Of a stretch of DNA of 64,000 nt, positions 1,101 to 39,304 are shown one piece after another (within the stretch, counting starts at the first letter, position 1; every line of letters begins with the position of its first letter). The stretch is from Arbacia lixula. Its lineage: Eukaryota; Echinodermata; Echinoidea; Arbacioida; Arbaciidae. Location of the stretch: NCBI GenBank assembly GCA_963669155.1, contig OZ022593.1, positions 5,314,785-5,378,784 of the forward strand. Direction: 5' to 3'. Below the pieces are notes generated by a model. The model did no database searches, was not told where the DNA came from, and saw only the letters and a program-made list of their open reading frames with translations. A program made the translations under genes and the position numbers.

Positions 1101-1284
1101 AGAAAATTGAATGCAGTAAGAGAAGGGTCATTTAGAATAGAAATTTCGCACGCGCTCCAGGATCGCATTGTCTGTTGAGTCACGTAATGATTATGCTCAA
1201 GAGGATAAAAAGGGTTCGAACTTTTCCGTTTACAAGTCAATAATGCGCAAACTCATTCTGCCATTGATTCCAGTTTTCATTATA

Positions 1285-1745: not shown

Positions 1746-3327
1746 CACAATCACTATTCTTCAGGTCGGAAAATAGAAAAAAAAACATATATGCGGGCTG
1801 AGAAAATCAGACAGACGAGCTCACTTTCTACTGCACTTATTAATGCATGAATAAATATAAATCCTGGATTCGAATATAGTTATTCTGGATGATTCGACTA
1901 GTCATACATTTGCGATAGGGATTTGTTTTGTTTTTCTTTGAAGAAAGGCTAGCTTCAAAATCTTATTTCCTTCAGACCTCGAATCAAAAAGAACACGTAG
2001 CAACATTCCTTTGCGCTGCCGTGAATCGACAAACGGAGCTTGTGCACAGCACGCTTCATCTCATTCATGTACATTATGCGTCCAACAAAAAGACACAAAC
2101 ATAATTTTGTTGAAAAACTAGTCTTGTTACACCATAATCCAATTTCATTTTAAAGTCGGTGCAGGATATAGTCAGGACGTTCCAAGTATGACATATTCGT
2201 CGTGTTCATTGGGATGGTGACTTCATTGATTTTGAAAGGTTTAGCGTAAAGGTTCATAATCCACTAGCCATGTTCATGTACAGTGGCTTTATTGATTGAA
2301 ACATCCAGGGATGTCTAATTCCTGTCCTGTTTATTGTACCACACGCTTTTTCCAAGTTTTCAATCGACCAGCCCCTTAATATTGCCTATAGGCTGAACGC
2401 GTTCTGGGCTTGTCACTTCCTGTTCTTTCATAAAGAAATTGACCTTTTATTGGCTCCACGATAGCACCTTTCAAAGTAAATCATACTGGTATTAAACCTG
2501 CTGATATCGAAGAGAGATTATTCATTATTATGTGCTTGCCATCAAACAAACAGTTCATTTCTTCTAGACTTTAGAATAAGCGGAATATAGACCTGATTTA
2601 GCCCGCTTTGCTCTTCACCACTGGAAGCAATACAATGGAGAAATAAAGAGCAGGAACACACAGGAAGCCACGGTGTAATGATGATTATACATTTTGATGA
2701 CTGCATACAAAGTGATACATTTTCATATCGCTACCGTGAAATATTAATATAATATTGACTGGCCTTGAGGGGAATACGACATAATTGCCAGGACAAAGAC
2801 GAGGGCAATATGGATTCAGTGAGAGCAATAAAGGTCGTATATTCCGAAAGTAAGAGCCAGTGAATATCATTATCATTATCAACATTAGACATCTATAGCT
2901 AATAATTTACACTTTCTATATCCCATGTTTTGAATAATGTCATTAAATTCCTTATCATCGAAAGACGCAAATCTTCCGAATGTTAGACCAGGGACAATAC
3001 AAGACGATATTTCCCGTTTTATTACGCGTCAAGTCCATAAGCTTTTGTGAAAGATGGTAATATTGTCAATATTACCATCTTTGCCCCATCGGCACTGGAA
3101 ACGAGGGGAATATGGTTTCGTAAAACCACTGCTCAGATATCTGATACGGATGATAATAGGAGTTCTATTCTAAATAATTTGACAATGAAATACGAATGGG
3201 ATTAAATGACATTATTAGTGATTACTTAATCAGCTTGATTACATGGGCCTATGACAATTTATTTACATTCACATGCGTATAGTTATAGGCGTACGATCAC
3301 GATAACTGTCAACATAATTCACAAGGA
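1746..3327. other. Non-coding stretch upstream of the RT fragment (copy A)
   Basis: AT-rich sequence with many stops in all frames. I recognise no domain, tRNA or repeat boundary apart from the 33-bp palindrome at 3050. The counterpart in copy B is 10768-12349. The sequence just before 3328 does not translate into the upstream part of a reverse transcriptase, supporting 5' truncation of the element that follows. Confidence 0.5.
3050..3082. repeat. Perfect 16-bp inverted repeat with 1-nt centre (copy A)
   Basis: AAAGATGGTAATATTG, one T, then its exact reverse complement. It could form a cruciform or an RNA hairpin with almost no loop. It is identical in copy B at 12072-12104. Confidence 0.9.
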
Positions 3328-4521
3328 ATGTTAATATCCCAAGGACGAAGAAAGGTAGCGGTAAATACTATTATTAATGCGATTGATGCAGGGAAGTTTT
3401 GTCTTGGGGTATTTTTGGACTTGTCGAAAGCTTTTGACACTATCGACCATGACATCTTAATCAACAAGCTTGAGCATTATGGCATTCGTGGAATTGCTTT
3501 AAATTGGTTTAGAAATTACTTATATAATCGATTAGAGTTTGTAATGGTTAATGGAGTCAAATCTCAATCCAGTGGAGTAAAATATGGCGTACCTCAGGGA
3601 TCAGTCCTGGGTCCCTTATTGTTTTTGATTTATGTTAATGATTTTATAAACTCATCTCAGTTGTTTACCTATTCACTTTTTGCTGATGATACTTGCTTGC
3701 TCTCTCACCACAAAAACATGCATATTCTTATTCTGACTGCAAATACAGAAGTTACCAACATATTCAAGTGGTTTTGTTGCAACAATCTTTTATTAAATGC
3801 CAGTAAGACTCAATATGTTGTCTTTAGATCAAAGGGAAAAAGAATTCCAGATAATACTGGTGCCTTGACAATCGGTGGTCATGTGATCAACCGAAGTCAA
3901 AATGTAAGGTTTCTTGGAGTTACGGTTGATGGTCATTTAACTTTGAAAGATCACCTTAGTTTTGTTTGTACCAAGGTCTCAAGGAGTGTTGGTGTGATTT
4001 CCAAGTTACGCTTCTTTTTATCAGAGAAAACCTTAGTAACTCTTTATAATGCTGCCATTATGCCCCACTTAACTTATTGTAATGTTGCATGGGGAAATAC
4101 GTATAGAACTCATATAAACAAGTTGATAGTCCTTCAAAAGAAAGCCATCAGGATGATTACAAATTCAAATTACAGAAGTCCAAGTGCTCCTTTATTTCTT
4201 CAACTTCAAGTGCTGCCTGTTGATGAATTAGTCTCTTTAAGTTGTTTGATATTCATGTACAAATCTCAATCGGAACAAAATAGTTCATTTTTAAAAGATG
4301 TGTTTATCATAAATTCTACTCATCAGTACAACACACGTCAAAGAAACCTAATCCATCAACCTCTAGCAAGGACTCAAACTGCTTTGAACTCTTTTGTAGT
4401 TGTTTCCATAAAAGAATGGAACAAGTTTCCACAAAACAAGAGGTCCAGTCCAACGCTGTCTAAATTTAAACTTTCATGTCGAATATATCTTTTTGAGAAT
4501 TTACAAAACAAGCTAAAGTAA
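3328..4521 (+). CDS. Non-LTR retrotransposon reverse transcriptase, 5'-truncated (copy A)
   Basis: An uninterrupted 397-codon frame encoding most of a non-LTR reverse transcriptase, the enzyme that copies element RNA into DNA at a nicked target. Visible motifs are FLDLSKAFDTIDH (first catalytic Asp about residue 31), YGVPQGSVLGPLLF (about 86-99) and FADD (118-121) carrying the catalytic Asp pair. These are followed by the thumb and the C-terminal region typical of the jockey/CR1/L2 group. Full ORF2 proteins in this group are usually 800-1000 aa with an N-terminal AP endonuclease; here the endonuclease and N-terminal fingers are missing. The ATG at 3328 lies at or next to the truncation point and is probably fortuitous. 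The intact frame suggests a young insertion. An A-rich 3' region and a TTGAAC-repeat tail follow. Confidence 0.9.
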   Translation: MLISQGRRKVAVNTIINAIDAGKFCLGVFLDLSKAFDTIDHDILINKLEHYGIRGIALNWFRNYLYNRLEFVMVNGVKSQSSGVKYGVPQGSVLGPLLFLIYVNDFINSSQLFTYSLFADDTCLLSHHKNMHILILTANTEVTNIFKWFCCNNLLLNASKTQYVVFRSKGKRIPDNTGALTIGGHVINRSQNVRFLGVTVDGHLTLKDHLSFVCTKVSRSVGVISKLRFFLSEKTLVTLYNAAIMPHLTYCNVAWGNTYRTHINKLIVLQKKAIRMITNSNYRSPSAPLFLQLQVLPVDELVSLSCLIFMYKSQSEQNSSFLKDVFIINSTHQYNTRQRNLIHQPLARTQTALNSFVVVSIKEWNKFPQNKRSSPTLSKFKLSCRIYLFENLQNKLK

Positions 4522-4806
4522 ATAACGGAAAGCCGTGTATGTCTGTGTGTTTTGCGGCGTGTGTGTGTGTGTGTGTGTATGTGTGATCTTAATTTTTGTT
4601 TATTCCAATTTTTACTCCTTATTTATCATTGTAAATATGCCATTCGTCATATATTTTTGTGTCATTATAACGTACCTTGTAAGGGGCCCCTATCACAAGC
4701 TCTGCTTTCTCCGAGGTCCCAAACCCATCATGTTCTTTCTTTGTCAATTAAATGTTAAAATGTTGTTTTCTTGATTGGTTTGAATAAAACTTGAACTTGA
4801 ACTTGT
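3335..4806 (+). mobile_element. 5'-truncated non-LTR retrotransposon (copy A)
   Basis: Runs from the truncation point near the start of the RT frame to a 3' tail of short tandem repeats, where TTGAATAAAACTTGAACTTGAACTTG-like sequence ends near 4806 (TTGAAC unit). A TG microsatellite lies in the 3' UTR (4557-4580). Tails of short tandem repeats instead of poly-A are known in CR1/L2/jockey-related groups. Target duplications were not resolved. Confidence 0.8.
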
Positions 4807-5219
4807 ACACAATTAGCAATCTTGAAATCCTCGAGATGAGAAAGTAAATAATTTTTATACAGTGCACCTGCATGCGTCCCTCACAATATTTTTTTTTCTT
4901 AGTACAATATTTTTTAAGGAATGATTTATTGTGATCCCTGTCTATTTCTCCTCCCGTTTTTTTTTAAATATATTTTTTATTTTCTCTCAAATCAATTGAA
5001 GAAATCATTCTTAATTAAACCCGATGCATTGTACATTGACATTTTGAATTAAACATAAATTGCAATAGTCTTAAAAAAGGACAAAAAAGTATATGTTCAT
5101 ATATTGTTTACAAAACATTGTTGTACAATCAAGAATCTCGAGAGGAAAGCGTTGTCTATTTATTCTCCCACCCCCTCCCCCGTTTGAACATACTCCCAAC
5201 ACCTTCATCCACACACCCA

Positions 5220-5269
5220 AACTCACACACACACACACATACGCACACACGCAGCACACAAACACGCAC

Positions 5270-5323
<54 letters not shown>

Positions 5324-5357
5324 CACACACACACACACACACGCACGCACACAAAAC
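5220..5357. repeat. CA microsatellite (copy A)
   Basis: Long (CA)n tract interrupted by ACGC and AACAC variants. Frames through it give Thr-His or Val-Cys polymers and are artefacts. It is longer in copy A than in copy B. Confidence 0.95.
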
Positions 5358-5657
5358 AAAACATGTTTACTGAAGGATATATGCAAGCATTTTCTAACCA
5401 AAAAATAATGTATTCGCCTCGCCGTCCGTTTGACCGCAAAGAACGATTTCCCGCCCTATTGGATCGAGAGAGTTGTGAGGTTGGAGCATTCAAACTACTA
5501 TACTGAACTTTTTCAGATTGTCATAACTGCTAAACTAAAAGTGTTTCAAAGCGAACTAATAAGCAAATACTACAACAATGACAATGACAATGACGATGAC
5601 AATGCCAATTTATTGATCCCATGTCACCTTGTTAGATATTATGTCCGTTTTAGTATA

Positions 5658-6250
5658 CTATTTACTATCACTGATCAGTTCTTTTAATATACCAAATCCC
5701 CATTTCGCTTCAATAGGTAAAACACGTTGATCAAATAACTCCAAGAGAATATCAATAGGTATTTTAAATTGGTATGTTTTTGACATAAGACTGTTTCCCC
5801 TTCTTGCTTGATTCAGCTGCTTTATTATTGATTTGTGCTTTGCGAAATGTATCATAATCATAGGTGGTACCGAGATCAACAACTTCAACCACGTTAGTAT
5901 CAAACCTAAAAATTGGAATCCTCCGTACTTCCCCACGAGAAAAGATAAAGACTTTTAACCACCTTTTGCAGTGTACAGATAACGCATCTAATGCAAGTTG
6001 AAGTTCACTTTCAGATTTTGCAAGAACTAAATTGTATCATCTGCGTAAAGTAGAGTAAAGAGCTTGTATGTATACTTTTTGTATATATATATGTAGCTGC
6101 ATCAATTTTACGAGGAAGAATATCTTTCCCTTGAAATTTTTCAGAAACAAACTGTTCAAAACTCTTCTCTCTGACAAACACAACCACATCATTTTGAAAA
6201 TAACCGCGTGATTTTTGTAAGCGTTTCATGGCAGCAATAATCATACTTAA
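5658..6250 (-). pseudogene. Decayed reverse transcriptase of a second non-LTR retrotransposon (copy A)
   Basis: Read on the minus strand, about 6060-6025 translates as LFTLLYADDTI (the RT catalytic YADD box). It then hits a stop and a one-base frameshift, and continues as an RT palm/thumb region: LVLAKSESELQLALDAL, then IFSRGEVRRIPIFRF, then a segment with IPIDILLELFDQ and WGFG. These match the order of the region after YADD in endonuclease-type LINEs. The 6011-6244 part resembles the charged linker ahead of the RT. Fingers and the first Asp motif are missing, so there is an internal deletion as well as stops. It is a different lineage from the + strand RT at 3328. Confidence 0.75.
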
Positions 6251-6369
6251 ATTATAGTAAGACTGTTACCCTAATTATTAGGGTTATTATTATACTCCCG
6301 GGGTATTTCAAAGCTTGTTTTTACGGGGAGTGGGGGCATTATGCCCCCCCCCCACACACACACACGTTA

Positions 6370-6990
6370 TATTCAGAATGATGGGATTGTGTTTAGATCT
6401 GCTCCAACATGGCCATTAGCAATAAGGTAAAGCCCCTACGCCTTTCAAGAAATTTCTTGCCGTTTCTTGTGTTGCCTCTGTTCATATTACCGAACCTGTA
6501 TTACACAGTAAAAAATGTTGATCGGACATAACACTGTCAGATTTATCTATAAAATACATATTACAACGATTAACATCTTCCATTCACTTTCACACCCGGT
6601 TAAGTAGCATTGGAATCTCCTAAAAGGCAAAACGGTAAATTATGCACGTTCTTAAACATTATCAAATCAGCAGCAATGTCATCAGTAGATTCATTATATA
6701 ATAATAAGAATGTTCTGGGGAAATATTTATAAACGATACCTAACATAAATGAAAATCCGAAAGCTTTCTCACTGATATGTTATCCAAAATATTGTTTCTG
6801 ATATTGCATTTCGAATCCTAACCTAACACATAATTCAATATTTTTTTCTCTAATTAAGACACCAATACCATGAATTCCACCGTACACAGATTTACTTTGA
6901 TTTTGACTTTGCTTTGTAAAGATAATGTAAAGAGTCTGGGTATCAAACTTCCGTAACTCACAGTACTATCGCATTGCATTTTTTCCATGA
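6370..6990 (-). pseudogene. Decayed AP-endonuclease domain of the same minus-strand LINE (copy A)
   Basis: On the minus strand, about 6890-6840 reads YGGIHGIGVLIREKNIELC, about 6760-6600 reads a segment ending in NLPFCLLGDSNAT (resembling the GDFNA box of AP-endonucleases), and about 6420-6370 reads LIANGHVGADLNT. These motifs are in the order expected of a LINE endonuclease. Stops and frameshifts separate them. Together with the RT relic at 5658-6250 this is one minus-strand element of at least 1.3 kb, now non-functional. Confidence 0.7.
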
Positions 6991-7035
6991 TTATTTTTAG
7001 TGAAAGAAACAGCTACTGTAGCTGACCCCTAATTA

Positions 7036-7082
7036 CTCTGTGCATAAGGCATAAAGTATGCCTTATATGCACATGCACAGAG
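7036..7082. repeat. Imperfect hairpin CTCTGTGCATAAGGCATA
   Basis: CTCTGTGCATAAGGCATA and its near reverse complement flank a 3-base centre, with a small AT insertion in the right arm. Copy B (about 16053-16098) lacks that insertion and forms a tighter hairpin. It is followed by TAGCT/CTAGAG-rich sequence. Confidence 0.7.
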
Positions 7083-7207
7083 TACGCACAGAGCTCTAGA
7101 GAGATACAGTATGTAGAAAATTCATGCGTAGGTCGTGGACACATGTAATAGCTCATGCCTAGTTGCAGTCTAGAGAGCTATGCTGTCCAGCTCTATGATG
7201 CTGCCCC

Positions 7208-7256
<49 letters not shown>

Positions 7257-7342
7257 CAACACATACGGGGTACACAGAGAGCTATGGTGACTGAGAGCAG
7301 CTATCCCATACACATGCACACACACACACACACACACACACG
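7208..7342. repeat. Two CA microsatellites (copy A)
   Basis: (CA)n at about 7208-7254 and 7316-7341, separated by unique sequence. The copy B counterpart is at about 16225-16360. Confidence 0.95.
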
Positions 7343-7788
7343 CAAGGCATACTTTACACAGATAAGCATGTTACACATAGCTTATCTGTTATGCACTGTA
7401 TACACACAACCTATACGCAGTCAACTCATCTAATTATATATGCACGCGTTTGTGCGCGCACTGTCCCAGAAACCGTACCCTGGCGCGCCCTGGCCCTGAC
7501 GTGACCGGTCGACTCGACGGCGCGCCTGCCTGATTTGAGCTATGAGCGCGAGCTGCTCTGCGCGCGCTGCACGCATCAGCTATGCAGATGCATATCATAG
7601 TAACACTCATTTTATTCTTAGCAGTGCAGTTTCAGTGCTGCTGTATGTACAATAGATGCAGATTGAGTACATGCCAAAAGAGAGTTGCGTTTCTGTTCCA
7701 TATTCTGTTGGGTAGCTGCACCCGTACCCTCGACCAACTTATGCATTTCAGATTGCTTACAAGCCGCAAGTCAGACAGTCATGTCCAT
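7343..7788. other. Unassigned GC-richer right end of the duplicated unit
   Basis: GATAAGC...GCTTATC forms a short stem near 7361-7387, then comes a CG-rich block (7450-7575) with GGCGCGCC. The following 75-codon frame (7582-7809) starts with a hydrophobic stretch but is not recognised. It changes sequence after the duplication edge, so I do not call it a gene. Confidence 0.4.
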
Positions 7789-9019: not shown

Positions 9020-10306
9020 CGCGCGCGTCGCCACAGCATGTGAGTGATGCAATGATTCCCCACCGACTATATGGGTTCAATGACCGCGAGAGTGGACTTG
9101 TTATTTACTTTGAGTTTACGTGCCTCGCCCATCAAGATAAGCTCAGAGTTCGCTGGTACCCCGGTAAAAATAACAATAATACTCAGTGTTCCTGTATGTG
9201 CAATATTAGCCCTCTAAATTCGTAACAGAATCAACATATAGAATTAACTTCTCCAAATGGAAGGCGTCAGAAAGCCACGTGAACCTGTTCCACCCGGGAA
9301 ACATCCGGTTCTCATCTTTTCAATAGACCCCATCCCCGCCTCGGCTTTCGGATCTCAAACAAAAGCGAGAAGAAAAGCGAAAAATCGCTGGCTAATGAAT
9401 AGTGTGTCTGTGAAGGCTTTTTTAATGCGGCCCTCTACGGCCATAAAGTATAATCTCCATCCATACGTCCTTGATGTGGTTTGTATGCGCTCGATGTATT
9501 AACCTGTGATTCCTTTTATTTCATTGTATTTTTGTTTTCTTCTTCATTCTTTCCGTGTTAATCTATCAATTTGGAAGTCATCAATATAATCAGGGACAAT
9601 AAAGCCTTTCCTTTTTGTTGCATTCGAGCATTTCCTTCAAAATATAAAACCATTAGAAGGGCGTATGTAGAGAGTGTGTATTTATGTGTATCATTTGGCT
9701 TCCTGCAGAGAATTGTCCTTTACAGCAGGCAGTCACAATCTTTTTTATTACTTTACTTTCTTTCACAAAATCCTAAACATGTATTACCTTTTCAATACAA
9801 AATTATCACTGTTTAAACCGTCAGGACGATTTCTCCGATGAATGCAAGAAGTTTCGTAAACGATATTTTGCCTTGCCCTGCAAAACGAGACGGGACTCTT
9901 CATTTGAAATTCATTTTGATATGATTGAATTGATGACAATTTGTGTATACATGATACATGCTTTTTGAGAAAAACCTTGTGAAAGCATTGGCGGATCCAG
10001 GGGTCACAGCGACGGCGGTAATTATTGGTGACGCCAAAAAAAAAAAAGGGGGGGGGAGGGGGGGGGGGGGGGAGGTGAGAAAAAAAAGAGGAGAGGGGGA
10101 AAGAAAAAGAAAGAAAATAGGAAGAAAATTGAATGCAGTAAGAGAAGGGTCATTTAGAATAGAAATTTCGCACGCGCTCCAGGATCGCATTGTCTGTTGA
10201 GTCACGTAATGATTATGCTCAAGAGGATAAAAAGGGTTCGAACTTTTCCGTTTACAAGTCAATAATGCGCAAACTCATTCTGCCATTGATTCCAGTTTTC
10301 ATTATA

Positions 10307-10767
10307 CAGATACACATCCTATTCATGGTATAAAGTGCTGAATATAACAAAAATGTCCAAGCGCTCGCATTATGAGATACGTATCCTATTCATGAATTCC
10401 CACAAAATTAGTCTTTGGCGTGTCTTCTTTTCGGGTCAGTATATAAAATATTTTCAGCTCGCGCTTTGTTCGCATTACTTGTTTTCATAGTTCACGCATC
10501 CTATTCATGATTCCAAAGATTGCTTACGATATTCTGTATTTCAAGTACAAATCGCGCTTGCATGACTTGCTTTTAAGATACCCATCCTTATCATGGTTAC
10601 AAAAGTACCTTCTAAATTCCCGTTTTATGGTCTAATCTTTATAATTGCTTATAAAAAAAAACGTGCTTATACTGTTTAGTGTTCAGGTAGTAAAATCGGA
10701 CACTTCGTGCTCACACCAATTGTTTAATAAGATACCAATCGTGCTCATGATTACAAAAATGATTATA
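10307..10767. repeat. Diverged tandem repeat with CATCCTATTCATGATT core (copy B)
   Basis: Exact counterpart of the repeat at 1285-1745 in the second duplicate, offset 9022. Confidence 0.65.
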
Positions 10768-12071
10768 CACAATCACTATTCTTCAGGTCGGAAAATAGAA
10801 AAAAAAACATATATGCGGGCTGAGAAAATCAGACAGACGAGCTCACTTTCTACTGCACTTATTAATGCATGAATAAATATAAATCCTGGATTCGAATATA
10901 GTTATTCTGGATGATTCGACTAGTCATACATTTGCGATAGGGATTTGTTTTGTTTTTCTTTGAAGAAAGGCTAGCTTCAAAATCTTATTTCCTTCAGACC
11001 TCGAATCAAAAAGAACACGTAGCAACATTCCTTTGCGCTGCCGTGAATCGACAAACGGAGCTTGTGCACAGCACGCTTCATCTCATTCATGTACATTATG
11101 CGTCCAACAAAAAGACACAAACATAATTTTGTTGAAAAACTAGTCTTGTTACACCATAATCCAATTTCATTTTAAAGTCGGTGCAGGATATAGTCAGGAC
11201 GTTCCAAGTATGACATATTCGTCGTGTTCATTGGGATGGTGACTTCATTGATTTTGAAAGGTTTAGCGTAAAGGTTCATAATCCACTAGCCATGTTCATG
11301 TACAGTGGCTTTATTGATTGAAACATCCAGGGATGTCTAATTCCTGTCCTGTTTATTGTACCACACGCTTTTTCCAAGTTTTCAATCGACCAGCCCCTTA
11401 ATATTGCCTATAGGCTGAACGCGTTCTGGGCTTGTCACTTCCTGTTCTTTCATAAAGAAATTGACCTTTTATTGGCTCCACGATAGCACCTTTCAAAGTA
11501 AATCATACTGGTATTAAACCTGCTGATATCGAAGAGAGATTATTCATTATTATGTGCTTGCCATCAAACAAACAGTTCATTTCTTCTAGACTTTAGAATA
11601 AGCGGAATATAGACCTGATTTAGCCCGCTTTGCTCTTCACCACTGGAAGCAATACAATGGAGAAATAAAGAGCAGGAACACACAGGAAGCCACGGTGTAA
11701 TGATGATTATACATTTTGATGACTGCATACAAAGTGATACATTTTCATATCGCTACCGTGAAATATTAATATAATATTGACTGGCCTTGAGGGGAATACG
11801 ACATAATTGCCAGGACAAAGACGAGGGCAATATGGATTCAGTGAGAGCAATAAAGGTCGTATATTCCGAAAGTAAGAGCCAGTGAATATCATTATCATTA
11901 TCAACATTAGACATCTATAGCTAATAATTTACACTTTCTATATCCCATGTTTTGAATAATGTCATTAAATTCCTTATCATCGAAAGACGCAAATCTTCCG
12001 AATGTTAGACCAGGGACAATACAAGACGATATTTCCCGTTTTATTACGCGTCAAGTCCATAAGCTTTTGTG

Positions 12072-12104
12072 AAAGATGGTAATATTGTCAATATTACCAT
12101 CTTT
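12072..12104. repeat. Perfect 16-bp inverted repeat (copy B)
   Basis: Identical to 3050-3082. Confidence 0.9.
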
Positions 12105-12349
12105 GCCCCATCGGCACTGGAAACGAGGGGAATATGGTTTCGTAAAACCACTGCTCAGATATCTGATACGGATGATAATAGGAGTTCTATTCTAAATAAT
12201 TTGACAATGAAATACGAATGGGATTAAATGACATTATTAGTGATTACTTAATCAGCTTGATTACATGGGCCTATGACAATTTATTTACATTCACATGCGT
12301 ATAGTTATAGGCGTACGATCACGATAACTGTCAACATAATTCACAAGGA

Positions 12350-13543
12350 ATGTTAATATCCCAAGGACGAAGAAAGGTAGCGGTAAATACTATTATTAAT
12401 GCGATTGATGCAGGGAAGTTTTGTCTTGGGGTATTTTTGGACTTGTCGAAAGCTTTTGACACTATCGACCATGACATCTTAATCAACAAGCTTGAGCATT
12501 ATGGCATTCGTGGAATTGCTTTAAATTGGTTTAGAAATTACTTATATAATCGATTAGAGTTTGTAATGGTTAATGGAGTCAAATCTCAATCCAGTGGAGT
12601 AAAATATGGCGTACCTCAGGGATCAGTCCTGGGTCCCTTATTGTTTTTGATTTATGTTAATGATTTTATAAACTCATCTCAGTTGTTTACCTATTCACTT
12701 TTTGCTGATGATACTTGCTTGCTCTCTCACCACAAAAACATGCATATTCTTATTCTGACTGCAAATACAGAAGTTACCAACATATTCAAGTGGTTTTGTT
12801 GCAACAATCTTTTATTAAATGCCAGTAAGACTCAATATGTTGTCTTTAGATCAAAGGGAAAAAGAATTCCAGATAATACTGGTGCCTTGACAATCGGTGG
12901 TCATGTGATCAACCGAAGTCAAAATGTAAGGTTTCTTGGAGTTACGGTTGATGGTCATTTAACTTTGAAAGATCACCTTAGTTTTGTTTGTACCAAGGTC
13001 TCAAGGAGTGTTGGTGTGATTTCCAAGTTACGCTTCTTTTTATCAGAGAAAACCTTAGTAACTCTTTATAATGCTGCCATTATGCCCCACTTAACTTATT
13101 GTAATGTTGCATGGGGAAATACGTATAGAACTCATATAAACAAGTTGATAGTCCTTCAAAAGAAAGCCATCAGGATGATTACAAATTCAAATTACAGAAG
13201 TCCAAGTGCTCCTTTATTTCTTCAACTTCAAGTGCTGCCTGTTGATGAATTAGTCTCTTTAAGTTGTTTGATATTCATGTACAAATCTCAATCGGAACAA
13301 AATAGTTCATTTTTAAAAGATGTGTTTATCATAAATTCTACTCATCAGTACAACACACGTCAAAGAAACCTAATCCATCAACCTCTAGCAAGGACTCAAA
13401 CTGCTTTGAACTCTTTTGTAGTTGTTTCCATAAAAGAATGGAACAAGTTTCCACAAAACAAGAGGTCCAGTCCAACGCTGTCTAAATTTAAACTTTCATG
13501 TCGAATATATCTTTTTGAGAATTTACAAAACAAGCTAAAGTAA
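12350..13543 (+). CDS. Non-LTR retrotransposon reverse transcriptase, 5'-truncated (copy B)
   Basis: The second copy of the 397-aa frame at 3328-4521, with an identical translation. It retains the same DLSKAFDTIDH, GVPQGSVLGPLL and FADD motifs and the same missing endonuclease. Because the flanking kilobases are duplicated with it, this copy arose from the segmental duplication and not from a second retrotransposition. Both copies are expected to be unable to mobilise themselves, since no endonuclease is encoded. Confidence 0.9.
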   Translation: MLISQGRRKVAVNTIINAIDAGKFCLGVFLDLSKAFDTIDHDILINKLEHYGIRGIALNWFRNYLYNRLEFVMVNGVKSQSSGVKYGVPQGSVLGPLLFLIYVNDFINSSQLFTYSLFADDTCLLSHHKNMHILILTANTEVTNIFKWFCCNNLLLNASKTQYVVFRSKGKRIPDNTGALTIGGHVINRSQNVRFLGVTVDGHLTLKDHLSFVCTKVSRSVGVISKLRFFLSEKTLVTLYNAAIMPHLTYCNVAWGNTYRTHINKLIVLQKKAIRMITNSNYRSPSAPLFLQLQVLPVDELVSLSCLIFMYKSQSEQNSSFLKDVFIINSTHQYNTRQRNLIHQPLARTQTALNSFVVVSIKEWNKFPQNKRSSPTLSKFKLSCRIYLFENLQNKLK

Positions 13544-13828
13544 ATAACGGAAAGCCGTGTATGTCTGTGTGTTTTGCGGCGTGTGTGTGTGTGTGTGTGT
13601 ATGTGTGATCTTAATTTTTGTTTATTCCAATTTTTACTCCTTATTTATCATTGTAAATATGCCATTCGTCATATATTTTTGTGTCATTATAACGTACCTT
13701 GTAAGGGGCCCCTATCACAAGCTCTGCTTTCTCCGAGGTCCCAAACCCATCATGTTCTTTCTTTGTCAATTAAATGTTAAAATGTTGTTTTCTTGATTGG
13801 TTTGAATAAAACTTGAACTTGAACTTGT
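12357..13828 (+). mobile_element. 5'-truncated non-LTR retrotransposon (copy B)
   Basis: Duplicate of the element at 3335-4806, including its TG microsatellite and TTGAAC tail. Confidence 0.8.
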
Positions 13829-14241
13829 ACACAATTAGCAATCTTGAAATCCTCGAGATGAGAAAGTAAATAATTTTTATACAGTGCACCTGCATGCGTC
13901 CCTCACAATATTTTTTTTTCTTAGTACAATATTTTTTAAGGAATGATTTATTGTGATCCCTGTCTATTTCTCCTCCCGTTTTTTTTTAAATATATTTTTT
14001 ATTTTCTCTCAAATCAATTGAAGAAATCATTCTTAATTAAACCCGATGCATTGTACATTGACATTTTGAATTAAACATAAATTGCAATAGTCTTAAAAAA
14101 GGACAAAAAAGTATATGTTCATATATTGTTTACAAAACATTGTTGTACAATCAAGAATCTCGAGAGGAAAGCGTTGTCTATTTATTCTCCCACCCCCTCC
14201 CCCGTTTGAACATACTCCCAACACCTTCATCCACACACCCA

Positions 14242-14291
14242 AACTCACACACACACACACATACGCACACACGCAGCACACAAACACGCAC

Positions 14292-14350
<59 letters not shown>

Positions 14351-14367
14351 CACACGCACGCACACAA
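14242..14367. repeat. CA microsatellite (copy B)
   Basis: Counterpart of 5220-5357, about 9-12 bp shorter. This length change accounts for most of the offset change between the duplicates. Confidence 0.95.
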
Positions 14368-14670
14368 AACAAAACATGTTTACTGAAGGATATATGCAAG
14401 CATTTTCTAACCAAAAAATAATGTATTCGCCTCGCCGTCCGTTTGACCGCAAAGAACGATTTCCCGCCCTATTGGATCGAGAGAGTTGTGAGGTTGGAGC
14501 ATTCAAACTACTATACTGAACTTTTTCAGATTGTCATAACTGCTAAACTAAAAGTGTTTCAAAGCGAACTAATAAGCAAATACTACAACAATGACAATGA
14601 CAATGACGATGACAATGCCAATTTATTGATCCCATGTCACCTTGTTAGATATTATGTCCGTTTTAGTATA

Positions 14671-16020
14671 CTATTTACTATCACTGATCAGTTCTTTTAA
14701 TATACCAAATCCCCATTTCGCTTCAATAGGTAAAACACGTTGATCAAATAACTCCAAGAGAATATCAATAGGTATTTTAAATTGGTATGTTTTTGACATA
14801 AGACTGTTTCCCCTTCTTGCTTGATTCAGCTGCTTTATTATTGATTTGTGCTTTGCGAAATGTATCATAATCATAGGTGGTACCGAGATCAACAACTTCA
14901 ACCACGTTAGTATCAAACCTAAAAATTGGAATCCTCCGTACTTCCCCACGAGAAAAGATAAAGACTTTTAACCACCTTTTGCAGTGTACAGATAACGCAT
15001 CTAATGCAAGTTGAAGTTCACTTTCAGATTTTGCAAGAACTAAATTGTATCATCTGCGTAAAGTAGAGTAAAGAGCTTGTATGTATACTTTTTGTATATA
15101 TATATGTAGCTGCATCAATTTTACGAGGAAGAATATCTTTCCCTTGAAATTTTTCAGAAACAAACTGTTCAAAACTCTTCTCTCTGACAAACACAACCAC
15201 ATCATTTTGAAAATAACCGCGTGATTTTTGTAAGCGTTTCATGGCAGCAATAATCATACTTAAATTATAGTAAGACTGTTACCCTAATTATTAGGGTTAT
15301 TATTATACTCCCGGGGTATTTCAAAGCTTGTTTTTACGGGGAGTGGGGGCATTATGCCCCCCCCCCCCCCACACACACACACGTTATATTCAGAATGATG
15401 GGATTGTGTTTAGATCTGCTCCAACATGGCCATTAGCAATAAGGTAAAGCCCCTACGCCTTTCAAGAAATTTCTTGCCGTTTCTTGTGTTGCCTCTGTTC
15501 ATATTACCGAACCTGTATTACACAGTAAAAAATGTTGATCGGACATAACACTGTCAGATTTATCTATAAAATACATATTACAACGATTAACATCTTCCAT
15601 TCACTTTCACACCCGGTTAAGTAGCATTGGAATCTCCTAAAAGGCAAAACGGTAAATTATGCACGTTCTTAAACATTATCAAATCAGCAGCAATGTCATC
15701 AGTAGATTCATTATATAATAATAAGAATGTTCTGGGGAAATATTTATAAACGATACCTAACATAAATGAAAATCCGAAAGCTTTCTCACTGATATGTTAT
15801 CCAAAATATTGTTTCTGATATTGCATTTCGAATCCTAACCTAACACATAATTCAATATTTTTTTCTCTAATTAAGACACCAATACCATGAATTCCACCGT
15901 ACACAGATTTACTTTGATTTTGACTTTGCTTTGTAAAGATAATGTAAAGAGTCTGGGTATCAAACTTCCGTAACTCACAGTACTATCGCATTGCATTTTT
16001 TCCATGATTATTTTTAGTGA
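14671..16020 (-). pseudogene. Decayed endonuclease + RT LINE, minus strand (copy B)
   Basis: Duplicate of the relic at 5658-6990: the same YADD box followed by a stop, the same frameshift, the same GDSNA-type endonuclease motif. The lesions are shared, so decay preceded the segmental duplication. Confidence 0.75.
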
Positions 16021-16222
16021 AAGAAACAGCTACTGTAGCTGACCCCTAATTACTCTGTGCATAAGGCATAAAGTATGCCTTATGCACATGCACAGAGTAC
16101 GCACAGAGCTCTAGAGAGATACAGTATGTAGAAAATTCATGCGTAGGTCGTGGACACATGTAATAGCTCATGCCTAGTTGCAGTCTAGAGAGCTATGCTG
16201 TCCAGCTCTATGATGCTGCCCC

Positions 16223-16273
<51 letters not shown>

Positions 16274-16805
16274 CAACACATACGGGGTACACAGAGAGCT
16301 ATGGTGACTGAGAGCAGCTATCCCATACACATGCACACACACACACACACACACACACGCAAGGCATACTTTACACAGATAAGCATGTTACACATAGCTT
16401 ATCTGTTATGCACTGTATACACACAACCTATACGCAGTCAACTCATCTAATTATATATGCACGCGTTTGTGCGCGCACTGTCCCAGAAACCGTACCCTGG
16501 CGCGCCCTGGCCCTGACGTGACCGGTCGACTCGACGGCGCGCCTGCCTGATTTGAGCTATGAGCGCGAGCTGCTCTGCGCGCGCTGCACGCATCAGCTAT
16601 GCAGATGCATATCATAGTAACACTCATTTTATTCTTAGCAGTGCAGTTTCAGTGCTGCTGTATGTACAATAGATGCAGATTGAGTACATGCCAAAAGAGA
16701 GTTGCGTTTCTGTTCCATATTCTGTTGGGTAGCTGCACCCGTACCCTCGACCAACTTATGCATTTCAGATTGCTTACAAGCCGCAAGTCAGACAGTCATG
16801 TCCAT

Positions 16806-18784: not shown

Positions 18785-19393
18785 GTCAACTGGCAAATAA
18801 AGCTAGTAAACCACAAAGGACCAAAAATCATCAACAGAAAGTTAGAGAGGGGCAGAAAGCTTCTGTCATCACTGAAAACAAAAGATGGGACAGAAGTTAC
18901 CGATAAAGAAGAGATTACTCAAGTGATTGAGGACTTCTATAGAGAACTCTATAGCACAGACCAACCAGATTGGAGAGTAAATGAGGACTGGAATGAGAAA
19001 TCAAATGATGTTCCACCAATACTAAAGGAAGAGGTGAAGAGTGCTTTATATCAGATGAAAAGGGGAAAGGTTCCAGTGGAGGATCAAATGACTGCAGATA
19101 TTATTAATTTGGGGGGGCGAGGACACCATATCAATCCTAACAAAACTGTTCAACAAGATCATGCAAATGGAACAGGTACCTACCCAGTGGAACAAATCAA
19201 AAGTTATCATACTGTCCAAGAAAGGGGACATGAAGGACATCAAAAACTCCAGGCCCATTAGTCTGTTGCCTCATATATACAAAATATTCACACAAATTTT
19301 TCTTGCTAGGGTAGAGAAACAGCTTGATGAAAATCAACCATGGGAACAAGCTGGTTTTGTACAGGATACAGAACATCAGAACATCTCCACACC
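18785..19393 (+). pseudogene. RTE-type retrotransposon, 5' part of the RT domain
   Basis: Reads in frame from about 18790 as a LINE linker and RT N-terminus: GPKIINRKLERGR, then TEVTDKEEITQVIEDFYREL, then an EEV...ALYQMKRGK segment. A one-base insertion in the G run near 19112 shifts the frame. The next frame carries SKVIILSKKGDMKDIKNSRP, then ISLLPHIYKIFT and ENQPWEQAGF. This SRPISLL...EQAGF layout is typical of RTE-like LINEs in animals. The endonuclease is absent, so the element is 5'-truncated. The frame is broken at 19394 by a DNA transposon and resumes at 21641. Confidence 0.85.
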
Positions 19394-19429
19394 TTAACCC
19401 TATCTAGCCCGGGGGGGGGGGGGGGGGCA

Positions 19430-19783
19430 AAAACAGCCCCCCCCCCCCTCGACATTTTTCGCAATAAATTTGTAACGCGAAAAGATCACGCCGCGACGTT
19501 TCATGACTTTTTTCCTTCAAGTCTCACGCATCTTTTAAGACCAAATTTGCGACATGGGGGTACACGGTTCCGAAGTTACGTAACATTGTGTATGTGCATG
19601 TCACATAAAACAGCCCCCCCCCCCCTCGACATTTTTCGCAATAAATTTGTAACGCGAAAAGATCACGCCGCGACGTTTCATGACTTTTTTCCTTCAAGTC
19701 TCACGCATCTTTTAAGACCAAATTTGCGACATGGGGGTACACGGTTCCGAAGTTACGTAACATTGTGTATGTGCATGTCAGAT
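19430..19783. repeat. 177-bp tandem duplication inside the TTAA-flanked element
   Basis: Two near-identical units (about 19430-19606 and 19607-19783). Each begins with AAAACAGCCCCCC, which is part of the element's inverted repeat, and ends with GTGTATGTGCATGTCA. The 148-codon frame across them is a repeat artefact whose translation repeats KTAPPPLDIFRNKF. Confidence 0.92.
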
Positions 19784-20164
19784 TAAAAATTGCTCAAAAA
19801 CATGATTTCATGTACAAATCCAATGCAAATTCTGTATCTAGTCAAAATTCATAAATGTATCATTATTTCTATTATTACTGATGAAGAACAATAGATTTTA
19901 TGTTATTTATGACTGAAATAGTGTTGCCAACGAATTCCATCGAAAAAACAATGAAAAACAAAGTCCGAAAAACAAAGAAATACATAAGAAATTAAAAAAC
20001 AATAAAATACATAAGAAAAAACATTTTTTAAAATCCCAATTTGATAATAATCCTAAGAAGAGTGTCTGGGCTGATATCTAGAAGTTTTGGGGCTATATTT
20101 AAAGATTTACAACCAAATTATGATTTTTATGCATTTAATTAGCATAATTAATTGATTAATACGA

Positions 20165-21490
20165 GGGAACAGACAATCAGTAGTAACTCAAGGGGTGCTC
20201 AAAGTAGCAGGGACTGAAATAGTCCAAGTTGATTTTGCATCGTTTGTAGGAGTTTATATAGATCAACACTTGACTTGGAAACCTCATATTGAAAGGGTTA
20301 ATAAGTGTATCAGAAAGAAGGTTGGCGTTTTATATAGATTAAGACAGTTTGTGCCAAAGCATATTTTATTATTATTGTATAAGACATTAATCCAACCGCA
20401 TTTGACATATGGAATTGAGGTTTGGGGAAGTAATTATGAAACGACAATGAAGTGTTTATTACTAAGCCAAAAAATGGCACTAAGAATCATAACCTTTAGT
20501 CCAATCAGGACTCATTCAAAACCAATATTTCAGGAGTTAAAATTATTGAATGTGTATCAACTCCATAAACTATCTATCTGTGTTTTTATGTATCAATTAT
20601 TGAATGGTAAATTGCCGCATTCCCTAATTCAGTATTGTAGTTTTATAGAACACCAATACGAGACAAGACAAAGGGAAAGTAAGAAGTTGAATGTGCCTAA
20701 GGTTAGGACTACACATGGAAAATTTTCAGTTTCATTCAGAGGCACATGCTTCTGGAATGATTTACCCCTATCCATACGGGAGAAAGCATCAGTGTGTTGC
20801 TTTCGTAAAACTCTAATATCTCAAATGTCAATGGAATAATTCGTTGTTGTTGCTTTTCAAACCAGAGTTCTTGCCTTTTTATAAAGATTGTGTTAGATAA
20901 TCCTTTATCTTTTTATTTAGTTATAGATACCAAAGCACTTATATTTATATTTAATCACAAAATATATTTTATACTAGATGTAGAATAGCTTATTCATTAG
21001 CTATGTATTCAACATAGTATTTAGTGCATAGTATGTAGATAGTATGTAGATAGAACATAGCATGTATTCAACATTTCTGCATTATATTGTATTATCATTT
21101 GTCTCGTAAAACTTGATATGTTAAATGTTAGTGAAATTAATTGTTTTGAACTTTTAACCAAGGTTCTTGCCTTTCTTGTAAACATTGTGTTTGATAATCC
21201 TTAATCATTTTACTTAGTAACGATACCAAAGCTTTGTATGTAATCACAGAATATATTTTACACAATATGTTTAATAGCTAGTAGCGTAAGTACGTATTCA
21301 ACATTTAAGCATACTGTATTCTCATTCTTATGTGTATTAATGGTACCAGACCCGATTAGCATTTCATGCTATTTTCAGGTTCCATTTATCCTCTTAATAC
21401 TTTTGTTAAACTTTCAGTTTCGCAATGTTTCGTAACATATTCTTTTTATTTGGATAATAAAACATCAAACTCAAACTCAAACTCAAAAAT
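20165..21490 (+). mobile_element. 5'-truncated non-LTR retrotransposon nested in the TTAA element
   Basis: An RT C-terminal fragment followed by a long AT-rich 3' region with internal near-repeats (for example, AGGTTCTTGCCTTTCTTGTA resembles an earlier copy near 20862). The tail is an ACTCAA tandem repeat at about 21465-21487. It is related to the RT of 3328-4521, which ends in a comparable short-repeat tail. Confidence 0.8.
20189..20839 (+). pseudogene. C-terminal fragment of a non-LTR reverse transcriptase
   Basis: About 214 codons open to a stop at 20839, with no ATG at the start (the frame opens on GTG). FVGVYIDQHLTWKPHI corresponds to the FLGVTVDGHLT block of the 3328 element, HLTYGIEVWGS to its HLTYCNVAWGN block, and YETRQRES to YNTRQRN. 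The catalytic YADD and everything N-terminal are absent, so this cannot be an active enzyme. The frame is otherwise unbroken, suggesting a relatively recent truncated insertion. Confidence 0.85.
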
Positions 21491-21640
21491 AGATTTGAAT
21501 AATTTTGGTGCAATTGGCAATTGAATTGTGGAGATCAACGGTCGAGATCTTAGGGGGGGGGGGCTGTTTTTGCCCCCCCCCCCCCCCCCCCCCCCCCCGG
21601 GCTATGCGATTTCAAAATAGCCCAGGATATATAGGGTTAA

Positions 21641-22745
21641 GCCAGATAATCAAGAAGGCAAAGGAATACCGTTTTGACATCTGCTGCAGCTTTGTTGATT
21701 ACGAGAAGGCATTTGACTGCCTAGACCATCAGTCATTATTCAATGCCTTAGAAAAGCAGGTCACAGATGGAAAGTATATTCGCCTTATTAAGACCATCTA
21801 TAAGGACTCTAGTGCCCGTGTACATCTAGAAAGCACTACAACAAATGCCTTTAAAATCCTGAAAGGGGTAAGACAAGGTAACCCCATCTCACCAAAGCTC
21901 TTCACTGCAGCTATTGAGGATGTCTTCAGAAACCTTGATTGATTATCATTGGGAATAGTGGTGGATGGCGAACACCTGACACACCTCAGATTTGCAGATG
22001 ACATTTTACTACTTAGCCATACACCTCAGGAACTGGAGAAAATGGTCCGAGAACTAAGTGAAGAAAGTAGAAAAGCTGGACTGAAAATGAATATCACAAA
22101 GACAAAGGTAATGATGAGCAGTAGATTCAAAGAACACAAAATCACAGTTCGGGGGAGGACCGTAGAAAAGGTAGACAACTACATATATTTGGGCAAAAAT
22201 ATCTCCATAGAAAATGAAACAGCAGGGGAAGTGAATAGAAGGATTCAGTTGGCTTGGGCAAAATTTGGCAAGCTCAACTTTATCTTTCGTGATGAGAAGC
22301 TCCCTCTTTCTCTCAAGAAACAGATTTTCAACCAATGCATCATACCTGTGCTCTCTTATGGAGCAGAAACATGGACCACAACTAAGAGACTGGAGAGAAA
22401 ACTTAGAGTAACCGAAAAGGGTATGGAAAGAATCATGATTGGTGTTACAAAGAGGGACAAAGTTAGAAACCAGGATTTGAGAAAGAAAACCAAAGTACAG
22501 GAAATTAAATCAAAGAAATGGAGGTGGGCTGGTCATCTAGCTAGGAGGAAAGATGATAGATGGACTAATAAATCAACCATCTGAACCCCCAGGGCTAACA
22601 CCAGAAGAAGAGGCAGGCAAAGTAGGAGGTGGATTGACGATATTAGAGAATATGGTAGTATGACATGGAAACGAACGGCACAAGATAGATCAAAATAGAA
22701 AAATGATGAGGCCTTCCTTCATCAGTGGAGAGAAATAGGCTAGAG
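21641..22745 (+). pseudogene. RTE-type retrotransposon, 3' part of the RT and C-terminus
   Basis: Continues the RT of 18785-19393. VDYEKAFD (about 21694-21717) carries the first catalytic Asp, KGVRQGNPISPKLF follows near 21865, and FADDILLL (about 21991) carries the Asp pair. The thumb, with GLKMNITKTKVM, follows. The C-terminal AGHLARRKDDRW...RRGRQ segment and a final HQWREIG end the protein near 22742. Premature stops at about 21940, 22582 and 22696 disable it. A 3' tail of GATAGA units follows (22744-22760). Together the two halves form one truncated RTE copy of about 1.7 kb once the insert is removed. Confidence 0.88.
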
Positions 22746-30862: not shown

Positions 30863-31309
30863 TTAAAGGGATAGTTCACCCTGAAAATAATTTGGTATCA
30901 ATAAAAGGAGACATATGAAAGAAACATATTAGTGAAGGTTTGATGAAAATCTGTCACAGGATAAGAAAGTTATGATCTTTTGAAATGTCAATTTTGTGAC
31001 GTCATATGAGGTGCTCTCCCATATATGTTGTGTACAATTTGTTTTGAAAATGTTTTCTTTTCTCAAAAAGATATGCATCCTTTTACCTGTGCATTTGATA
31101 CATCATTAGAAATATGTTTTTACATATTCCGTTGTTGTACACAGCATATGGGAGAGTACCTCGCACGTGACATCACAAAATTGAAATTTCAGAAGATCAT
31201 AACTTTCTTATCCTTTGACAGATTTTTGTCCAACCTTCACTAATATGTTTCTTTTAAGTTTCTGCTGTTATTGAAACTAACATATTTTCAGGGTGAATTA
31301 TCCCTTTAA
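30863..31309. mobile_element. Palindromic MITE, family 1, TTAA-flanked
   Basis: TTAA (30863-30866) then AGGGATAGTTCACCCTGAAA at the left; the reverse complement, ending ATTATCCCT then TTAA (31306-31309), at the right. The inner arms also pair: CATATTAGTGAAGGTTTGAT with its complement near 31231, and GATAAGAAAGTTATGATCTT with its complement near 31190. Nearly the whole 439 bp folds back. A partial copy is at 54585-55017. Confidence 0.9.
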
Positions 31310-35579: not shown

Positions 35580-36083
35580 CTGTTCAGTGGAAATATGTGT
35601 CCTTTATTTTAAAATAGTTTTTCCTTATTTTTCTCAGCACTGATAAGCCCCGCCTCCAAAATATCCTCCAACTCAAGATTCCCACTGTGACATCATCAAA
35701 GGTAGAAATTAGCAGGATAATAAGCAGAATTTATGCACAAACTAACATTGCAATGACTACCTCCACCTGCCCACAAGATCATCACATGTCTTCACACAAT
35801 ACCATCTAACTACCTTTCATGTGGGAATAATCGTTTCCTTATGCAGTTATGTCAGAAATGTGCTAGCTATGTCATGTATATGATGCTATTATAAGCACAG
35901 GTAGTCATTGCAATGTTTATTTTGTGCATAAATTATGTCTATTATCCTGCTTATTTCTACCTTTGGTGATGTCACAGGGGGAATCTTGAGTTTGAGGATA
36001 TTTTGGAGGCGGGGCTTGTCAGTGCTGAGAAAAAATATAGAAAAACTATTTTAAAATATAGGACACATATTTCCATTGAACAG
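35580..36083. mobile_element. Palindromic MITE, family 4
   Basis: CTGTTCAGTGGAAATATGTG at the left and CATATTTCCATTGAACAG at the right. The arms (about 190 bp each) share AAAATAGTTTTTC, GCCCCGCCTCCAAAATATCC and AGCAGGATAATA with their complements. A short loop lies near 35770-35880. Confidence 0.9.
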
Positions 36084-36619: not shown

Positions 36620-36909
36620 ATTCCTATAGAAACCAGTAGAGAGCGCCTACTGGTTTCTACTGGTTTTTCATAAACCAGTAGAGTCTACTGGTCTGATGAA
36701 GAACTGCAAAATCAAACCAGTAGAAACCAGTAAAAACCAGTAGAAAAAGTAAAGTTTAATGGTATTGAAGACCAGCAGAAACCAGTGAGATCTAATGATT
36801 TGAAAAGGAGTGTGGAAAAATCAAAGTCAAAACAGTAGAAACCAATATAAACCAGTGAGATCTAATGGTTTCAAATGGAGTGTGAAAAATACAAAGTCAA
36901 ACCAGTAGA
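36620..36909. repeat. AAACCAGTAG-rich repeat, left block
   Basis: AAACCAGTAG and its complement CTACTGGTTT recur many times; at 36640-36690 they face each other as hairpins. The block passes into a ~116-bp-type unit with GATCTAATGGTTT and GGAGTGTGAAAAATACAAAG, broken at 36909 by a retrotransposon. Confidence 0.85.
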
Positions 36910-39304
36910 CTCACAGTCTTTCAATGATCTTCTTGAGTCTCTGTGTTGCACACAGTTAGTTGATTTTTGTACCCATACACATGGTCATACACTTGACTTG
37001 TTGATCAGGCGGCAGTCTGACGATACCATTGTAGTTGGAAAACCTTGGGCCTATCCAACTTTGATCTCTGATCACTTTCCTGTAATGTGCTACCTCAATT
37101 CAAGTAGAGTTCACTTTCCGATCAAGAAGATCACATTTCGAAGGCTATCTGCAATCAATACTGATTTGTTAAAAGAAGATATTGTTGAAAGTCGTCTTTG
37201 TAAGGAAATTCCCAATGACGTTTCTGAACTAGCTACATTGTATGATACAACACTCAGAGAAGTGTTAGACAAGCATGCACCAAGGGTAGTAAAAAATGTG
37301 GTCCTGAGACCTAAGGTGCCTTGGTTAAATGATAGCATATTGGAGAAAAAACGGAAAAAGAGGAAAGCTGAGAAGCGTTGGTCAAAGACGAGAACAGATG
37401 AAGACTGGAAAGAATACAAGTCAGCTAGAAACGCTTATTCTTTCCATTTGTATGAAGCACGCAAAGCCCATCACATAGTGTTGGTGTCTGAAAATAAAGA
37501 AAATCCAAAAACACTGTTTAATGTCGTGAAAGGTCTGTTAAACATGTCTAACAAACAGCCAGTTATACCAAATAATGTTGATAGTAAAACCTTTGTCAAT
37601 AGCTTAGGGAATTACTTCTTGGATAAAGTTCAGAAAATTCATGATGATATTGAATCCAAAATCAGTAATGTTAACAAATTAATCACTGACGAAATCTCAC
37701 TTGATAAAGAAATTGCAGTTCTCACAGATTTTAAAGAATTGTCTGAACATGATGTTAAAATCTTGATCATGAAGCTCAGTAAAAAATCCTGTCCATTGGA
37801 CCCAATGCCCACAAAAATGCTTATGCAATATTTGGATGTATTATTACCTGTCATAACCTCTGTGATCAATACATCTCTGTCAACAGGGCAGTTTCCTGCT
37901 CTGTGGAAAGTTGCACTTGTTAAACCGCTGTTGAAAAAGTCAGGTATTGGTACAGAATTTTGCAATCTGAGGCCTATTAGTAATCTTCAGTACATTTCAA
38001 AGTTGGTAGAAGGCGCTGCTACCCAACAAATCCTTGAGCACATTGATTCTCACTCACTCTTGCCAATCAACCAATCAGCCTACCGAAAATTTCATAGCAC
38101 TGAAACAGCACTCCTAAGAATCAAAAGTGATCTTCTAATGTCAATGGATGACCAGAAGATTAGTATACTGCTCTTACTTGATTTGACCGGCGCTTTTGAC
38201 ACTATTGACCATTTGTCTCTGTTACAAACTTTAAAAAGTCATTTTGGGATAAATGGTACAGTTTTTGCTTGGATCGAATCTTACTTGGCTGATAGAAAAC
38301 AGACGGTTGAAATGAATGATATTGAGTCAGATGTGTTTAAGGTACCTTTTGGTGTCCCTCAAGGGTCACGTCTAGGACCCTTACTTTTTACATTGTATAC
38401 AAGCAGACTCCTCACAAATATTGAAAAGGAGTTCCCCATTATTACTTGTCACTGCTACGCAGATGACACCCAAATATATTTGTCATTCTGTCCTAACACA
38501 CCAAATGAAGACTACTGTATCAGTGTGTTAGAAACATGCATTGATTACATCAGAGCCTGGATGTTGCAAAACAAATTGATGTTGAATGATAAGAAAACAG
38601 AGCTGTTAGTCATTGGTACTCCACGTCAAGTATCCAAGTTTCGGACAAATGGTATATCAGTACGTGGCACTGTTATAAAACCGTCCCATAGCGTAAGAAA
38701 CCTAGGAGTCTTATTCGATACCCATTTAAGCATGGATTCACAAATTACTAGTGTATGCAAATCAGCATATTACATGATTTATAATCTGAGGCGCATTCGT
38801 AAATATTTTGATCAAGATAGCATGAAAAGTGTAGTTCACGCATGCATTACGAGTAAATTAGATTACTGTAATAGTGTACTGTACGGATTACCAGACTCAC
38901 AGATAGTAAAGTTACAGCGGGTTCAAAATACATGTGCAAGATTGATTTGTAATCTTCCAAAATTTGCCCATGTTACACCATTGTTAAGAGACTTGCACTG
39001 GCTGCCCGTACGCCAAAGAATTGAATTCAAGATGTTGGTGATAGTCTTTAAAGCGTTAAATGATCAGGCTCCTAGATACATTAATGAATTACTGCATTTT
39101 AAATGTCAAACCCATGGTCATAATCTCCGCAGTACACAAGACACATCGTTGTTGCAAGTCCCCCAAATCAGAACAAAAGTAACCCTAGGTGACCGATCAT
39201 TCTTTTGTGCAGCTCCTAGATTGTGGAATAAACTACCTGTAGACATCAGGAAATCTAAAACATTAGACAGCTTTAAATCAAAGGTGAAAACCTATTTGTT
39301 CTAA
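36875..39304 (+). CDS. CR1/L2-like retrotransposon ORF2: partial endonuclease + reverse transcriptase
   Basis: An open frame of 809 codons. Residues 36-43 (HGHTLDLL) and 65-70 (SDHFPV) are the end of an AP endonuclease that nicks the target; its N-terminal catalytic part is missing. A Lys/Arg-rich linker follows (about 150-185). The RT domain spans about 360-600: LRPISNLQYISKLVE, LDLTGAFDTIDH (Asp at 436), FGVPQGSRLGPLLF and CYADDTQ (YADD 528-531). A thumb and a C-terminal domain with HWLPVRQRIEFK follow. The ATG at 36875 and the first 11 codons come from the AAACCAGTAG repeat, so the annotated start is not the element's own. The RT core looks intact, but loss of the endonuclease makes autonomous movement unlikely. 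Confidence 0.92.
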   Translation: MECEKYKVKPVDSQSFNDLLESLCCTQLVDFCTHTHGHTLDLLIRRQSDDTIVVGKPWAYPTLISDHFPVMCYLNSSRVHFPIKKITFRRLSAINTDLLKEDIVESRLCKEIPNDVSELATLYDTTLREVLDKHAPRVVKNVVLRPKVPWLNDSILEKKRKKRKAEKRWSKTRTDEDWKEYKSARNAYSFHLYEARKAHHIVLVSENKENPKTLFNVVKGLLNMSNKQPVIPNNVDSKTFVNSLGNYFLDKVQKIHDDIESKISNVNKLITDEISLDKEIAVLTDFKELSEHDVKILIMKLSKKSCPLDPMPTKMLMQYLDVLLPVITSVINTSLSTGQFPALWKVALVKPLLKKSGIGTEFCNLRPISNLQYISKLVEGAATQQILEHIDSHSLLPINQSAYRKFHSTETALLRIKSDLLMSMDDQKISILLLLDLTGAFDTIDHLSLLQTLKSHFGINGTVFAWIESYLADRKQTVEMNDIESDVFKVPFGVPQGSRLGPLLFTLYTSRLLTNIEKEFPIITCHCYADDTQIYLSFCPNTPNEDYCISVLETCIDYIRAWMLQNKLMLNDKKTELLVIGTPRQVSKFRTNGISVRGTVIKPSHSVRNLGVLFDTHLSMDSQITSVCKSAYYMIYNLRRIRKYFDQDSMKSVVHACITSKLDYCNSVLYGLPDSQIVKLQRVQNTCARLICNLPKFAHVTPLLRDLHWLPVRQRIEFKMLVIVFKALNDQAPRYINELLHFKCQTHGHNLRSTQDTSLLQVPQIRTKVTLGDRSFFCAAPRLWNKLPVDIRKSKTLDSFKSKVKTYLF

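Follow-up and report, generated by a model that had tools for sequence, protein, structure and literature searches.

A reverse transcriptase reading frame in the 64,000-nucleotide stretch of Arbacia lixula DNA analyzed here (the window) is split by a segment that stands between two copies of TTAA. The locus raises the question of what this insert is, where exactly its boundaries lie and which of the elements at the site is the older. Our analysis indicates that the insert is, with high probability, a non-autonomous piggyBac-type DNA transposon that moved by cut-and-paste into a TTAA of an older non-LTR reverse transcriptase, duplicating the TTAA. The insert measures 2,239 bp between the TTAA copies, nested LINE fragment included, and an earlier note on this DNA had described both the TTAA at its two edges and the ends reading CCCTAT inward; each of these features was confirmed, the latter on both sides. 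The features of the locus are collected in Table 1.

Table 1. Features of the split element and its insert, in positions of the window
Feature	Position	Strand	Basis
Left part of the split non-LTR element, ending with the first TTAA	18785..19397 (putative start)	+	RVT_1 match, frame changes
TTAA target site, left copy	19394..19397	.	Sequence
Insert, very probably non-autonomous piggyBac-type	19398..21636	.	CCC ends at TTAA, inner inverted repeat, host frame continuous outside
Left outer terminal repeat, CCCTATCTAGCCCGGG	19398..19413	+	13/16 identical to right end
Left inner repeat, TAGCCC-G17-CAAAAACAG-C12	19405..19448	+	Repeat search and direct comparison
Tandem pair of a 177-bp unit, copies with 99% identity	19430..19783	+	Repeat search; starts in left inner repeat
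Nested fragment of another LINE	20156..21489 (both ends approximate)	+	Similarity to LINE ORF 3289-4518; tail read in sequence
Right inner repeat, TAGCCC-G26-CAAAAACAG-C11	21553..21604	-	Repeat search and direct comparison
Right outer terminal repeat, CCCTATATATCCTGGG (reverse complement)	21621..21636	-	Comparison with left end
TTAA target site, right copy	21637..21640	.	Sequence
Right part of the split non-LTR element	21641..22743	+	RVT_1 59-141 and 147-202; stops

The host reading frame at the TTAA junction

When the insert is removed and one TTAA is kept, the two flanks read GYRTSEHLHTL followed directly by SQIIKKAKEY in one frame, which remains open to 21939 (written from the join, GYRTSEHLHTL and then SQIIKKAKEYRFDICCSFVDYEKAFD). 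Keeping zero or two TTAA copies breaks the joined frame. The junction of HLHTL with SQII around one TTAA, as proposed in the earlier note, was thus borne out as a single open frame. The 111 joined residues matched the R2 reverse transcriptase (9nl3_A) with an E value of 1.2e-12 over residues 5-107, and the alignment has no gap at the join, which falls after residue 11. Matches to LINE-1 ORF2p start at residue 13, beyond the join, and therefore have no bearing on it. As shown by Pfam, RVT_1 positions 59-141 are matched by the right flank alone with 42.4 bits, and positions 53-141 with 44.4 bits once the 11 left-flank residues are added, which is a small gain.

The seven left residues at the join, SEHLHTL, score 16 (BLOSUM62) against the R2 residues opposite them. 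This score was reached at 2 of the 776 TTAA sites on both strands of the window, the site of the insert included, and by 43 of 127,958 21-mers of the window. No relative of the host reverse transcriptase spanning the join was confirmed in viral or prokaryote contig collections, which have poor scope for a eukaryotic repeat. The earlier proposal is supported in placing the insertion at a TTAA of a non-LTR reverse transcriptase, in the boundaries that it gives and in taking the host element as the older. The empty site predicted for a cut-and-paste insertion with TTAA duplication would read ACCTTAAGCC.

The frame restored in this way is a local one. In the right flank, both RVT_1 matches lie above the Pfam cut-off (59-141, E 8.4e-11; 147-202, E 4.2e-10). 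In the left part, RVT_1 positions 3-47 are matched within 19092-19394 at an E value of 0.0051 and 17 bits, under the Pfam cut-off of 29.6, and the Pfam scan of 18785-19261 found no match to RVT_1. HLHTL is not read in the main open frame of the left part (19092-19397): the frame shifts near 19360, some 11 codons before the join. It changes a second time within 19092-19261, for which the G run near 19114-19120 is a possible place. The joined frame of the right flank carries in-frame stops at 21940, 22582 and 22696, and the stop at 22741 is probably the normal end of the host frame. Because of the two frameshifts and three stops, removal of the insert restores the frame only locally, so that the earlier claim that precise removal rejoins the frame holds at the junction and fails for the element overall. 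Excision would undo the insertion and leave the host element broken. By its sequence similarity this element qualifies as a non-LTR reverse transcriptase, putatively RTE-type by its motifs. Like other non-LTR retrotransposons (here the putative RTE clade), it has a reverse transcriptase related to those of R2 and LINE-1; it differs from them in being decayed by frameshifts and stops.

Outer and inner inverted repeats of the insert

The inward ends of the insert, CCCTATCTAGCCCGGG on the left and CCCTATATATCCTGGG on the right, are identical at 13 of 16 positions. We ranked the TTAA pairs of the window that are 100-6000 bp apart by the similarity of their outer 16 bases, and the pair flanking the insert came 10th among 13,154; at least eight of the nine higher-scoring pairs lie within other inverted repeats of the window. 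Among 10 random windows generated by a first-order Markov model, one reached 13 matches and nine stopped at 12. Taken alone, the outer repeat is therefore marginal relative to chance, and as stand-alone proof of an element it was rejected.

Inside the ends lies a second inverted repeat, given in the earlier note as TAGCCC-Gn-CAAAAACAG. Direct comparison of its left and right copies showed it to be exact outside the homopolymer runs, with 6/6 matches in TAGCCC and 9/9 in CAAAAACAG. The G-runs between these two blocks are 17 (left) and 26 (right) nucleotides long, and the C-runs that follow are 12 and 11 nucleotides long. The repeat search returned a perfect inverted repeat of 37 nt, most of it homopolymer. 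Because G/C runs are common in the window (16 runs of at least 9, five of them inside the insert), the weight rests on the non-homopolymer parts of the inner repeat. The inner repeat is firmer evidence than the outer one. Its copies are placed asymmetrically, at distances from the insert ends of 7 bp (left) and 32 bp (right), and the left copy overlaps the left outer repeat. DNA folding of the two insert ends produced G/C hairpins (z-scores, -1.96 and -1.94), values that allow no strong claim on folding; the left inner repeat is able to form one such hairpin.

Long foldback elements are also present in the window at 35580-36083 and 55644-56328, and a 0.45-kb foldback element at 30863-31309 has parts that match 54882-55018 at 87%.

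Contents of the insert

To the insert belong a piece of another LINE and, outside it, about 0.9 kb that includes the 177-bp tandem pair. Twenty-two open frames of at least 45 aa overlap the insert, of which 21 were scanned whole with Pfam; the remaining frame (21499-21942) was scanned from 21640 on, the part that belongs to the host reverse transcriptase (RVT_1). No transposase was matched in the 21 of 22 frames scanned whole, and nothing rose above the curated cut-offs. The weak sub-threshold matches in these frames (best E values, 0.0027 and 0.0039) involve unrelated families, and we regard them as chance similarities. The lack of a transposase is expected if the insert is read as a non-autonomous copy. 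DNA self-comparison of the window (blastn, >50 bits) found no other copies of the insert beyond its internal repeats, and exact patterns taken from it had 0 matches in prokaryote and viral contig collections. As these collections consist mainly of viruses and prokaryotes, such negatives say little about a eukaryotic-looking repeat. Scanning the window for Rfam families and tRNAs returned nothing.

The LINE fragment is a third element within the locus and was absent from the earlier note. It comprises a C-terminal coding part (20156-20836, open for 227 aa) and a 3' region that ends in CAAACT units (21466-21489). The 227-aa frame is 34.8% identical to the LINE ORF at 3289-4518 over 207 aligned positions (E 9.6e-32) and 25.8% identical to the LINE ORF at 36866-39301 over 213 positions (E 2.75e-12); it had no PDB match and no Pfam match above the cut-off. 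In the 3' region, a sequence of roughly 0.2 kb is present twice within 20803-21304, the two copies having diverged to 75.7% identity over 214 positions. The other LINE at 36866-39304 has an open frame of 812 aa with a nearly complete RVT_1 match (8-203 of 205).

The fragment may have entered the insert by a separate insertion, or it may have been captured by the transposon and moved with it. Capture is in keeping with the lack of a convincing target duplication beside the LINE piece: comparison of 20060-20200 with 21450-21560 revealed nothing beyond chance, the longest exact matches being 7 bases, in the LINE's own tail units, and the next 6, while 181 of 200 shuffled controls had longest matches of 6 to 8, and no match with one mismatch reached at least 9 matched bases. 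However, an old target duplication may have decayed, and LINE insertion usually yields a 5'-truncated copy with a repeat tail at its 3' end. We consider capture possible and somewhat unlikely.

Repeats of other kinds occur elsewhere in the window. A direct repeat of 7.8 kb, whose copies at 1-7788 and 9020-16805 are 99.7% identical and separated by about 1.2 kb, either arose by tandem duplication in the recent past or represents two haplotypes set in a row by the assembly, and diverged tandem-repeat arrays with many overlapping self-matches lie at 56354-58170 and 60377-60958.

Family assignment and order of insertion

The piggyBac transposon is described as duplicating TTAA and excising precisely (PMC2533014, PMC7351741), and the insert likewise lies between TTAA copies of which one, retained at the join, restores the local frame. 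Its ends both begin with CCC, in a terminal repeat that is marginal when taken alone (CCCTAT at both ends; 13/16). According to PMC10813416, many piggyBac ends in animals start with CCC, although the four 5' motifs named there (CACTA, CCCTC, CCCTT and CCCAT) do not include the CCCTA of the insert. The T. ni piggyBac end primers read TTAACCCTAG (PMC2533014). Bee piggyBac elements often start with CAC, as stated in PMC10140906, so that CCC is a common start in piggyBac and not a universal one.

Asymmetric palindromic internal repeats are known in T. ni piggyBac (PMC7351741, PMC10140906). Its sub-terminal repeats are described as lying 3 and 31 bp inside 14-bp terminal repeats (PMC10140906), which by these figures places them about 17 and 45 bp from the ends, and its internal repeat is a 19-bp palindrome, one end's copy of which is bound by the transposase cysteine-rich domains in the structure reported (PMC7351741). 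The inner repeats of the insert, at 7 and 32 bp, are alike in layout and differ in distances and sequence from those described for T. ni; the shared asymmetry supports assignment to the piggyBac type. The insert thus has in common with non-autonomous piggyBac elements the TTAA duplication, the CCC ends, the asymmetric inner inverted repeats and a precise removal that leaves one TTAA. It differs in that its inner repeats are built on long G/C runs and overlap the outer repeat on the left, and in that it contains a piece of a LINE as well as the tandem 177-bp unit; the transposase of autonomous piggyBac members was not found in the open frames scanned. The G-run/CAAAAACAG/C-run palindromes could conceivably serve as internal transposase-binding repeats of a piggyBac lineage in which recognition would depend on a homopolymer tract that varies in length and forms a hairpin or quadruplex, as opposed to a fixed 19-bp palindrome, a proposal that we hold to be unlikely.

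Duplication of TTAA is common to piggyBac and to Kolobok, another group of TTAA-targeting DNA transposons, and the same window contains an element with a Kolobok type of end, the foldback at 30863-31309 in which TTAA is followed by AGGGATARTTCACCCT at both ends. However, Kolobok termini are given as 5'-RR and YY-3' (PMC9587614, PMC6004289), whereas the insert has CCC and GGG at these places, which makes a Kolobok origin very improbable. It could also be supposed that there is no single DNA transposon here, and that the TTAA pair and the short repeats are coincidental edges of composite insertions or of a retrotransposon rearrangement. The outer repeat, not beyond chance by itself, would agree with this, as would the composite make-up of the insert, with its LINE piece and tandem duplication. 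Against it stand the host frame, which runs to the exact TTAA residue, and the inner repeat, which matches at 6/6 and 9/9 positions outside its homopolymer runs; we give such a coincidence very little credence. Literature searches found nothing on sea-urchin piggyBac MITEs or on Kolobok elements with CCC ends, and among the papers retrieved on nested RTE/piggyBac elements, homopolymer terminal repeats or piggyBac with LINE fragments, none evidently describes this insert in the portions available.

For the favored piggyBac-type transposon, the order of events is as follows. The non-LTR retrotransposon was in place first, and the transposon inserted later at a TTAA in its reverse transcriptase, duplicating that TTAA. 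A piggyBac transposase supplied from another locus of the genome would have moved the transposon. The LINE fragment would have come into the transposon afterwards, by a separate insertion, or have been captured by it and carried in with it.

The locus is a clean but ordinary case of nested mobile elements, which fits the known behavior of piggyBac and changes no model of it; the homopolymer-based inner repeats are the one mildly unusual trait of the insert. It orders the elements in time, with the non-LTR retrotransposon the older and the TTAA transposon the later arrival, and it provides a natural case of a broken gene whose reading frame sets the boundaries of a transposon to the base.
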